Positions 20,879 through 23,181 of a DNA stretch of 60,250 nt are shown one piece after another; positions within the stretch are counted from its first letter, which is position 1; each line of letters starts with the position of its first letter. This DNA comes from Bifidobacterium breve (GTDB lineage Bacteria; Actinomycetota; Thermoleophilia; Miltoncostaeales; Miltoncostaeaceae). The notes beneath the pieces were generated by a model. That model ran no database searches. It had not been told where the DNA came from and saw nothing but the letters and a program-made list of their open reading frames with translations. The stretch is from positions 1 to 60,250 of the forward strand of contig CAMAVU010000004.1 in NCBI GenBank assembly GCA_945861935.1. The letters run 5' to 3'. Both the position numbers and the translations under genes were made by a program.

Positions 20879-21439
20879 GTGGGCGCCATCAGCACAAATG
20901 ACCTGAGGAACGGCTGGGTCCTCGACATTGACGGCGATCTCGTGAGCGTTGTCTCCTTCCAGCACGTCAAGCCCGGCAAAGGCGGCGCGTTCGTGCGCAC
21001 CAAGTTGAAGGGCCTCGCCAAGGGCAACGTGGTGGACCGGACCTTCCGGGCGGGCGAGAAGGTGGAGCGGGTGACCACCGAGACCCGGACCATGCAGATG
21101 CTGTACGAGGATGGCGACGGGCTCGTGTTCATGGACGGGGAGACCTTCGAGCAGGTGACGGTGCCGAGGGCCGCCATCGAGGCCGTGGACCTCCTCGCGC
21201 CCAACGCTGAGGTGCAGGTCCTCTTCGTCCGCGACGCCCCCTTCCGTGCCGACCTCCCGGTGACGGTGGAACTCGCGGTTGTGCGCACCGACCCGGGTGT
21301 GAAGGGGGATACCGTCTCGAACGTGATGAAGCCCGCCACTCTGGAGACCGGGGCCACGGTCAACGTGCCGCTGTTCGTCAACGAGGGTGAACGCATCAAG
21401 GTGGATACGCGAACGCGGGAGTATGTGAGCCGAGCATGA
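20879..21439 (+). CDS. efp: Elongation factor P
   Basis: Relieves ribosome stalling at polyproline stretches. 186 residues, three beta-barrel domains. The tip loop is KPGKGGAF with lysine at the modifiable position; C-terminal signature MKPATLETGATVNVPLFV. An AGGAG ribosome binding site precedes GTG 20879. No epmA/epmB or ymfI-type modification gene is nearby. Confidence 0.95.
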   Translation: MGAISTNDLRNGWVLDIDGDLVSVVSFQHVKPGKGGAFVRTKLKGLAKGNVVDRTFRAGEKVERVTTETRTMQMLYEDGDGLVFMDGETFEQVTVPRAAIEAVDLLAPNAEVQVLFVRDAPFRADLPVTVELAVVRTDPGVKGDTVSNVMKPATLETGATVNVPLFVNEGERIKVDTRTREYVSRA

Positions 21440-23181
21440 GTAACGACGTCCCCGGAACAGCCATCGGGCTGGTTGACGTCACCCTCCGCGACCTCGGCAC
21501 GCCGCCATGGGGCTCGCGGATTGCGCCCGAGGATCTGGCCGTCGCCACCGCGGCGCTTGCACCCGTGGGTGCGCAGGTGATCGAGGCCATGGATCCCGCA
21601 GCAGCACGGGCCTGCATGGATGGTCGCACGGAAAGCCCGCTCGACCGCCTTCGCGTGGTCGCGCGTCACGCGGGGGGCGCCCCCCTGGGCATCGTGGTGA
21701 CGGGCCGGGCGTTGTTCGGGGATGCGCCGCTTGGTCCGGGCGTGGCCGAGCGCCTCGTCGCCACCGCAGCCATCAGCGGGGCATCGCGGGTGCGTACATA
21801 CGATGCGCTCAACGACCCCGAGACGCTGCGCGGCGTGGCGCTCGGCGCGCGCGAGGCCGGAATCGGGTTCGTGCCCACCCTCGTGCTGGGCCCCGTGCCC
21901 GATGCGGCCGACCCCCGATGGGTGGACGAGGCCCTCGCGCTCGCCGACCTGCCCGGCGCGACATCGCTCTGCATCTCGGATCTCGGCGGAAACCTCACCC
22001 CGGTGGCGATGGGGCGTCTGATTGCCAGCGTCGTCGCACGGTGCGCCCTGCCGGTAGAGGTGTCCCTCCGCGCCACGGGCGGCCTCGCGTCAATGTCCGC
22101 TCTCAGCGCTGCGCTGGCCGGTGCGCACGTGATCCACGCATCGGTGGGGGCGGTGGCGCTGGTCGCCGGGCGTCCGTCCGCCGAGGCGCTCTACGTGGCC
22201 CTCCACGGCGGAGAGCGCGAGTTCGATGTGGTTCTGTCGGCGCTCGAGGAGGCTGGGCGCGTTGTCTGGCCGCTGGTTGCTCCGGAGCGCGTGCGGCGCG
22301 CCGCGGAACTGGCCGGGGGACCGCAGTTGCAGTTGCCACCCGACCTCGCGGCGGGCCTGCTGGCACGCCTCGCACGCCAGGGGCTGGCTGGTCGCGCCCA
22401 CGAGGCCGCCGACGAGTGCGCGGCGGTGTGTGCCGACCTCGGCGGCGTGACGTTCGCACCCCCCGTGGGCGAGCACATCGTCGCCCAGGCGGCGCGGCAT
22501 GTGGTGGACGGCGTGCGCTGGCGCGAGACCACCCCCGCCATTGCCGATGTGGCTCTGGGCGCCGCCGGACGCGTGCGCGGGGCGGTGTCGGGGGATGCCC
22601 TCTCAGTTGCCCACGGGGCTACGGGTACCGGTGCCGCGCCGGACCTCGCGGCTGTGCTGGCCGCGGCGCCGTCGGACGTGTCGGAGGAGGACGCGATCCT
22701 CCTCGCCCAGTTCCCCGGGCCCGGGCGACGCCTCGTCGACCGACGTCGCTCGCTTGCCGCCGAGGAGGTCGGAGACGAGGGCCTTGCGATCGATCGCGCC
22801 CTCATCGAGACGCTGATCGAGGTGGTCGAGGGGTCGGGACAGTCGGAGGTGAGCGTCGAGATCGGCGGTGCGCGGGTGACGGTGCGCCCGGCAGTGGCCA
22901 TCACGGGCCCGGCGAGCGGGGCCACGCCGGACCGGGTGGACGACGGGATTACCGTCAATAGCCCGATGGTCGGAACCTTCTACTCCGCGGCGAACCCTGA
23001 TGCCGAGCCCTTCGTCGGGGTGGGCAACCGCGTGGTCCAGGGGCAGGTGCTGTGCATCATCGAGGCGATGAAGATCTTCAATGAAATCACGGCCGAGCGT
23101 GCTGGGACCATCACCGAGGTCAAGGTCCAGAACGCCGAGCCGGTGCAGTTCGGGCAGACCCTGTTCGTGCTTGCGCCGTGA
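21436..23181 (+). CDS. accB: AccB biotin carboxyl carrier protein fused to a degenerate carboxyltransferase barrel
   Basis: 581 residues, against ~150 for ordinary AccB. Residues ~455-581 are AccB: the N-terminal helix region (LIETLIEVVEGSG), then the biotinyl domain with VNSPMVGTFY and the biotin lysine K546 in EAMKIF. Residues ~10-290 align with the carboxyltransferase barrel of oxaloacetate decarboxylase alpha/pyruvate carboxylase (DVTLRD, YDALNDPETLRG, CISDLGGNLTP, GLASM), but the active site is lost: D19 remains, while the carbamylated lysine is S181, the metal histidines are S210 and R212, and RDxHQS has become RDLGTP. A linker domain (~290-455) resembles the C-terminal helical part of that family. 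It overlaps efp and accC by 4 bases. Likely function: acetyl-/propionyl-CoA carboxylase carrier; the barrel is probably structural. Confidence 0.9.
   Translation: MSNDVPGTAIGLVDVTLRDLGTPPWGSRIAPEDLAVATAALAPVGAQVIEAMDPAAARACMDGRTESPLDRLRVVARHAGGAPLGIVVTGRALFGDAPLGPGVAERLVATAAISGASRVRTYDALNDPETLRGVALGAREAGIGFVPTLVLGPVPDAADPRWVDEALALADLPGATSLCISDLGGNLTPVAMGRLIASVVARCALPVEVSLRATGGLASMSALSAALAGAHVIHASVGAVALVAGRPSAEALYVALHGGEREFDVVLSALEEAGRVVWPLVAPERVRRAAELAGGPQLQLPPDLAAGLLARLARQGLAGRAHEAADECAAVCADLGGVTFAPPVGEHIVAQAARHVVDGVRWRETTPAIADVALGAAGRVRGAVSGDALSVAHGATGTGAAPDLAAVLAAAPSDVSEEDAILLAQFPGPGRRLVDRRRSLAAEEVGDEGLAIDRALIETLIEVVEGSGQSEVSVEIGGARVTVRPAVAITGPASGATPDRVDDGITVNSPMVGTFYSAANPDAEPFVGVGNRVVQGQVLCIIEAMKIFNEITAERAGTITEVKVQNAEPVQFGQTLFVLAP

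Follow-up and report, generated by a model that had tools for sequence, protein, structure and literature searches.

An AccB-type biotin carrier fused to a carboxyltransferase barrel that has lost its active site and is kept under purifying selection in an actinobacterial lineage

Among described biotin-dependent carboxylases, the closest counterpart of the protein analysed here is PycB (5ks8, PMC5059739), in which a carboxyltransferase (CT) barrel, a helical domain and a C-terminal biotin carrier lie on one chain. According to the same paper, two-subunit pyruvate carboxylase has an alpha subunit with an Ala-rich C-terminal helix, which the biotin carboxylase of acetyl-CoA carboxylase (ACC) is without (PMC5059739). 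In Chloroflexus aurantiacus, a heteromeric ACC likewise has its carrier fused to another domain; the partner there is biotin carboxylase, here it is a CT barrel, and a hairpin of the carrier is reported there to help tetramer formation (PMC11077971). Lombard and Moreira (2011) treated the CT of pyruvate carboxylase as private to PYC and OadA (PMC3199775); in contrast to that account, the CT domain described below lies within an apparent ACC carrier across many actinobacterial families. The open-access literature yielded no description of an AccB-CT fusion (titles, abstract openings and the best entries of longer lists, subscription papers and preprints being outside this search) and no inactive carboxyltransferase or pseudo-enzyme barrels of this kind (titles and abstract openings).

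The fused gene lies at positions 21436..23181 on the + strand of the window, the whole 60,250-nucleotide stretch of DNA that was analysed, and encodes a 581-amino-acid protein, recognised from its uninterrupted reading frame and from NCBIfam and PDB sequence matches. The window is on contig C4 of the source genome (G000), a 1.6 Mb MAG that is 95.7% complete. The closest public contigs are labelled, for example, Thermoleophilia or Miltoncostaeales bacterium, Miltoncostaeales being an order within Actinomycetota; some labels, such as Bifidobacterium breve, are plainly wrong. The gene order is aroC-aroK-aroB-aroQ-pepP-efp-fusion-accC-nusB, which is the usual place of accB. Four bases of the fused gene overlap with the stop of efp (20879..21439, +; TIGR00038, 239.4 bits > 185.8) and likewise four with the start of accC (23178..24542, +; 454 aa), which is followed by nusB (24539..24958, +; TIGR01951, 111.6 > 88.35). 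The names efp, accC and nusB are backed by profile matches, those of the aro genes and pepP by a reading of the sequence only. The accC product is an ACC-type biotin carboxylase, scoring 609.5 with PRK08591 (above the cut-off of 597) and 577.1 with TIGR00514 accC (below 626.5), and its best PDB matches are biotin carboxylases.

In the fused protein, residues 10-395 correspond by alignment to pyruvate carboxylase beta and to OadA, and residues 502-579 to BCCP, the PDB sequence matches being 5ks8_C (1.5e-33), 2nx9 (7.5e-28) and E. coli BCCP 4hr7_B (9.8e-20). NCBIfam PRK09282 (pyruvate carboxylase subunit B) matches residues 10-579 with 183.5 bits, below its cut-off of 402, and TIGR00531 (BCCP) matches residues 502-579 with 113.9 bits, just below its cut-off of 115.2, which all seven fused relatives scanned exceed (119.8-149.7); Pfam PYC_OADA gave no match to the window protein at E<=1. 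The degenerate CT TIM barrel comprises residues 9-300 (21460..22335, +) and is followed, as in pyruvate carboxylase and OadA, by a helical domain at residues 301-440 (22336..22755, +). A putative AccB N-terminal region at residues 449-486 (22780..22893, +) aligns with residues 18-55 of the BCCP chain 4hr7_B, an alignment that alone is not significant; in five of the seven relatives scanned (L203, L120, L137, L128 and L193; not L022 or L186), TIGR00531 spans this region from model position 1-5. The BCCP domain itself (residues 504-581; 22945..23178, +; PF00364, 7.4e-20) holds the biotinylation site K546 in an EAMK motif (23071..23073, +) and the thumb VGTFYSAANP. Such a thumb (MVGTFY..P) in the biotin domain is a feature of AccB. 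The protein compares with AccB of heteromeric ACC in its efp-accB-accC-nusB position, its thumb and its EAMK, and differs from it by ~440 extra N-terminal residues. It departs from PycB in being without the catalytic triad, in having an AccB-type carrier with a thumb (its relatives having an AccB N-terminal region in the linker between CT and carrier), in having as its partner an AccC without the C-terminal helix of the pyruvate carboxylase alpha subunit, and in sitting in an accB locus. From OadA it departs by the lost triad and by a TIGR01108 score of 155.5 bits against a cut-off of 756.5.

To follow the triad, formed by the carbamylated lysine and the two metal histidines (KHH), we used an alignment of 95 rows, including two references, with one broken row set aside; the relatives fall into families with f-numbers, f1 being the window's own, and were grouped only after the alignment had been inspected. 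In the window protein, R18 and D19 are retained, D19 (21490..21492, +) being the sole metal ligand kept, while the Lys/His/His columns hold S181 (21976..21978, +) and S210 and R212 (22063..22071, +). Further losses are Q22->T, R89->T and T342->P, residues whose equivalents in pyruvate carboxylase we take to serve pyruvate binding and proton relay. The earlier note, made from the letters alone, had described precisely this combination of AccB and a CT barrel with D19 kept and the triad replaced, and the alignment confirms it, as it does the intact biotin site (K546 corresponds to Lys in 22/22 f1 rows that have a residue at this position). Against the two reference chains, the key motifs do align without gaps, as the note had it; an additional residue close to W25 is seen only in the barrels of f7, f23 and the f3 paralogue. 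VGTFY.. is the commonest thumb form in intact, f1 and f3/f8/f9 rows.

The triad is KHH in all 31 rows from the 17 intact fused families and likewise in 15/15 further rows, of which nine represent other barrels, five are fused proteins from f26/f40/f47 and one is L146, an odd f4 row. It is retained in 0/23 f1 rows, 0/17 f3/f8/f9 rows, 0/5 f16 rows (His lost, Lys still there) and 0/1 f34 rows (Met present, His still there). L146_f4, with its odd N-terminus, was kept out of the 31 intact rows although its triad is KHH; L215_f6, a gene broken in its contig, was left out of tree and tally, and L216_f3, whose N-terminus is cut, out of the barrel tree only. Judged by these residues, the window barrel is unable to work by the known mechanism, as had been proposed, and the loss is family-wide. 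As for the particular substitutions at 181, 210 and 212, what persists throughout f1 is the absence of the triad and not the exact S, S, R, which occurs in 8/23 rows beside SQQ in six and six other triads, with Gln at 212 in 12/23.

That faulty assembly or annotation joined two separate genes, an outcome that the earlier note had allowed for, has practically no likelihood, and we reject it on the recurrence of the fusion: one full-length match (query residue <=12 to >=579) occurs in 42/61 genomes, the window's own included, and twelve full-length copies lie on named public contigs. What speaks for an artefact is a frame change inside the Ala/Pro linker of G030, a one-contig genome, and one in-frame stop within the fused gene of G080. 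In a phylum-wide search of 396 genomes drawn evenly from a larger group, full-length barrel-AccB proteins appeared in many actinobacterial families besides f1. The order efp-fusion-accC-nusB was found in 10/10 f1 loci printed and also in 10 f3, six f6, four f8, two f9 and four f4 loci reaching both sides. Some f3 loci have ~1 kb separating efp from the fusion; accC is missing in five f2 loci, and in f16, f26, f34, f40, f45 and f47 accC is the only neighbour recognised beside the fusion.

Across the 23 fused families tallied, the centre is intact in 17 and lost in six, and intact-triad fusions sit between efp and accC-nusB in f15, f17, f29, f41, f51, f54, f57, f58, f64, f69 and f82, as well as in fused f4 and f6 loci. 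Long branches meet in the barrel's own tree, and trees of neighbouring genes were used instead (six genes, 78 rows, with f16 and f34 rows carrying accC alone). In the six-gene tree, the f1, f3, f8 and f9 rows make up one side of a branch with SH-aLRT 99, and f16+f34 form another branch with SH-aLRT 97, placed by accC alone; the minimum is two state changes, unchanged with 84 rows including f2. The barrel has been inactivated independently at least twice. P24, R246 and G345, common to f1 and f3/f8/f9, together with Gln at 212 (17/17 f3/f8/f9 rows, in which Y210 is also invariant), fit a single loss in f1 + f3/f8/f9; f16 and f34 lost different residues, and therefore a third inactivation event is likely. 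Rooting on f7/f23 accC is unreliable, as this is another accC type, and no root was inferred; the change counts are independent of the root. Because the active fusion occurs in more families, at the same locus in most of those whose contigs show it, and the dead groups lie among them on the neighbouring-gene trees, the simplest history, with the root left aside, is that CT activity was lost after fusion. On the same grounds we reject the suggestion in the earlier note that the barrel marks an evolutionary step from OadA-type enzymes towards AccB.

To characterize the fold, an AF2 model was built from 13 aligned sequences; pLDDT per ten-residue block was 70-97 for residues 11-230, 42-70 for 231-260, 63-82 for 261-300 and 76-93 for 301-440, and the carrier was poorly predicted. 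The best structural match of the barrel model is 5ks8_D (VIA-align Z 38.5, 423 residues, rmsd 3.1), followed by OadA 2nx9_A (Z 38.4, 425 residues, rmsd 2.9, 21% identity), the superposition originally proposed as a check. The dead barrel is thus modelled as retaining the fold of the CT barrel and helical domain. Within the genus (7 loci), dN/dS is 0.092 for the barrel and helical domain, 0.090 for accC and 0.157 for the AccB part; for the neighbours in the same 7 loci it is 0.131 (efp), 0.148 (aroB), 0.153 (nusB) and 0.243 (pepP). The aroC median of 0.072 (7 loci) includes an aberrant value of 3.73 from a single pair that is probably misaligned, and the other genes were relied on. With 14 sequences (91 pairs), the median within-genus dN/dS is 0.140 for the barrel and 0.145 for BCCP. 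The dead barrel is under purifying selection about as strict as that on accC. This guarding of a dead domain suggests a second, structural or regulatory job. The former catalytic residues do vary among f1 genera, as drift would permit if the barrel were a decaying, neutral relic in a gene merely not yet trimmed; that reading is very improbable, however, given a dN/dS close to that of accC, a full length retained across f1, f3, f8 and f9 (30-36 percent identity to the window protein outside f1) and a fold that is intact in the model. We reject it on the selection result, unless the low dN/dS merely reflects the need for a soluble fold.

The distribution of conservation over the barrel bears on what this second job could be. 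The catalytic face was defined via strand ends in the model and compared with 5000 random draws. Its conservation is 0.917 against a barrel mean of 0.811 in intact rows (0/5000 draws as high), 0.838 against 0.764 in f3/f8/f9 (4/5000) and 0.878 against 0.771 in the five f16 rows (0/5000); in f1 it is 0.750 against 0.720 (569/5000), no clear excess. Since the f1 face is not clearly above the rest of the barrel, it appears that the whole shell is guarded there, as for a structural role. In f3/f8/f9, Arg18, Gln22, Arg89, Tyr210, Gln212 and Arg246 are fixed, so ligand binding is possible. Conservation therefore favours a scaffold in f1 and would leave room for a ligand pocket in f3/f8/f9. A pure scaffold leaves the conserved active face of f3/f8/f9 and f16 unexplained. 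One alternative is a regulatory pseudo-enzyme, in which the barrel mouth would bind a keto acid, acyl-CoA or other anion and tune ACC as an allosteric sensor. It would account for R246, invariant in both dead clades (23/23 f1 and 17/17 f3/f8/f9 rows) and missing from intact rows (Q24 N6 H1), for R18 in 22/23 f1 and 16/16 filled f3/f8/f9 rows, and for the conserved face of f3/f8/f9 with Q22 and R89 retained and Y210 and Q212 invariant. On the other hand, f1 is without Q22 and R89, its catalytic face does not stand out, and R246 was put on the loop after strand 8 by the order of elements in the model, in a stretch (238-251) with pLDDT <50; we regard this alternative as doubtful, though a genuine contender.

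That the barrel has acquired a different chemistry, or a metal site made from other residues, is improbable. The acidic set D19, E50, D53, D182 and E208 is invariant in f1 (each 23/23), D53 being specific to f1, since each of the 31 intact rows has Gly there, and E208 being fixed where intact rows vary. However, active relatives show E50 and D182 to be just as invariant, f3/f8/f9 have lost D19, and C179 is the only Cys or His kept in >=22/23 f1 rows (residues 9-299). HMGL-type enzymes use a histidine pair. An all-carboxylate metal site in f1 is unlikely.

To place the carrier in a pathway, we searched the source genome for ACC partners. Genes for AccD and AccA lie side by side on contig C1; AccA scores 349.9 with TIGR00513 (> 319.3) and is above two cut-offs, and AccD scores 312 with TIGR00515, just below 317.45, as its only strong match. 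No stand-alone AccB was found in this genome, where the whole protein matched, at E<=0.001, only the fusion itself and one other product, a BC-BCCP alpha subunit. G000 also has, on a reading of the sequence, a separate propionyl-type carboxylase near methylmalonyl-CoA mutase. With AccA, AccD and AccC present and no second AccB found, the fusion is probably the carrier of acetyl-CoA carboxylase. AccA occurs at E<1e-40 in 55/61 relatives, the six others being five f5/f7 genomes that have no fusion match and G015 (65% complete), and at E<1e-90 in 41/45 further genomes; no strong AccA match was found in G323, G369 and G399, which have the fused intact barrel, carrier and accC together, and no AccA match in G362 (f34), which has a fusion match.

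The active relatives also differ in their parts from ordinary two-subunit pyruvate carboxylases. The AccC adjoining fused genes is about 444-463 aa long and, like the window AccC, is without the Ala-rich C-terminal helix of the pyruvate carboxylase alpha subunit; among the loci printed, only L194 (f28) and L213 (f14) show a helix tail (about 491-492 aa), and their carriers are without the thumb. Between CT and carrier, at the place of the four-stranded PT/BT-like sheet, the relatives have by sequence an AccB-type region, where the model is of low confidence. An AccB-type carrier and an AccC without the helix indicate that even the active fusion is made of ACC parts.

Loss of the barrel's activity is associated with other enzymes of C3-C4 metabolism. 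Counting full-length PC, PEPC, PEPCK-GTP and PEPCK-ATP above curated cut-offs, we found at least one such enzyme in 42/46 dead-barrel genomes (misses G005, G035, G118 and G341) and in 8/32 intact-barrel genomes, or seven without the weak G342 PEPCK-ATP match (65.7 bits); G044 and G059, whose barrel is not fused to AccB, were excluded. Fisher tests give 1.4e-9, or 2.7e-10 without G342, for genomes that are not independent, and the association rests on at least two independent losses; a tree-based sign test had two independent contrasts and was without power. In G000, PEPCK-ATP is cut by the contig end. The intact-barrel exceptions include all f2 genomes (5/5), which have PEPCK-ATP, and therefore another C3-C4 enzyme allows the loss and does not force it.

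Based on these results, we favour, with some confidence, the explanation that the window protein is the AccB of a heteromeric ACC bearing a dead pyruvate carboxylase-type barrel that is retained for assembly, and that the fusion was ancestrally bifunctional. In the ancestral fusion, AccC would put CO2 onto one carrier, and the loaded carrier would deliver it either to AccA/AccD, giving malonyl-CoA, or to its own barrel, giving oxaloacetate. In the ancestor of f1 and f3/f8/f9, the lysine that bears the carbamate and the histidines that bind the metal would have disappeared from the barrel, CT activity dying where other C3-C4 enzymes existed. The barrel may have been retained as a non-catalytic module because assembly still relies on it; most likely it would keep carriers together, much like the CT dimer in pyruvate carboxylase, and position them for AccC and AccA/AccD. 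The obvious template for such dimerisation, which we infer by analogy, is the CT dimer of pyruvate carboxylase (PMC5059739).

A bolder proposal, which we hold tentatively and regard as possible rather than probable, is that deep actinobacteria possessed a 'two-way' carboxylase, with one carrier and one AccC serving both acetyl-CoA and pyruvate, and that two or more lineages shut down the pyruvate arm and recruited its shell as an ACC sensor or clamp. If true, this would tie fatty-acid supply to oxaloacetate supply within one complex. Should the intact form work in ACC as well as in pyruvate carboxylase, fatty-acid synthesis and anaplerosis would have one subunit in common at their committed steps, and the dead form would then be a natural test of the barrel's non-catalytic role and of pseudo-enzyme retention.

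The fusion of a carboxyltransferase barrel to AccB recurs in distinct actinobacterial lineages, f16 (loci L185-L189) and f34 (locus L193), each of which has undergone partial loss of the Lys/His/His catalytic triad: only the His pair is lost in f16, and only the lysine in f34. GTP-PEPCK is present in 4/4 of the f16 genomes tested.

At the f2 loci L133, L134, L135, L145 and L223, nusB directly follows an intact fusion and accC is absent from the locus; in L135 and L145 the biotin-lysine motif of the carrier is EMMK rather than EAMK. Loci L142, L143, L147 and L214 show an arrangement unlike the fusion. 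In f7 and f23 an unfused AccB is grouped with accC and with a barrel encoded separately, which belongs to another subfamily and retains an intact triad. L147, an f3 paralogue, contains AccB and the barrel, with no accC seen at the locus.

As assembled, the fused gene of L144 (G030:C1:1744700-1754600, minus strand, ~4200-4490), from a single-contig genome of the same family as the window, shows a frame change, which may be an error or real, within the GC-rich Ala/Pro linker that joins the AccB N-terminal region to BCCP; in two genomes of G030's genus, G137 and G138, the frame continues across it. One in-frame stop codon, which may be a sequencing error or a genuine break, lies within the fused-gene match, as assembled, in each of G080 (L149), G071 and G103.

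Beyond the operon and outside it, a long ORF (window 25243-28737, + strand) contains repeated units (TIDRTAPSVASFTT) and, in its N-terminal part, a signal-like hydrophobic segment; from its sequence, the product looks like a secreted protein.

Intact barrel-carrier-accC sets are found in genomes G323 (f26, L191), G369 (f40, L196) and G399 (f47, L195), where AccA gave no strong match and where the carrier has the motif EVMK and a thumb. These sets may represent a third kind of carboxylase.
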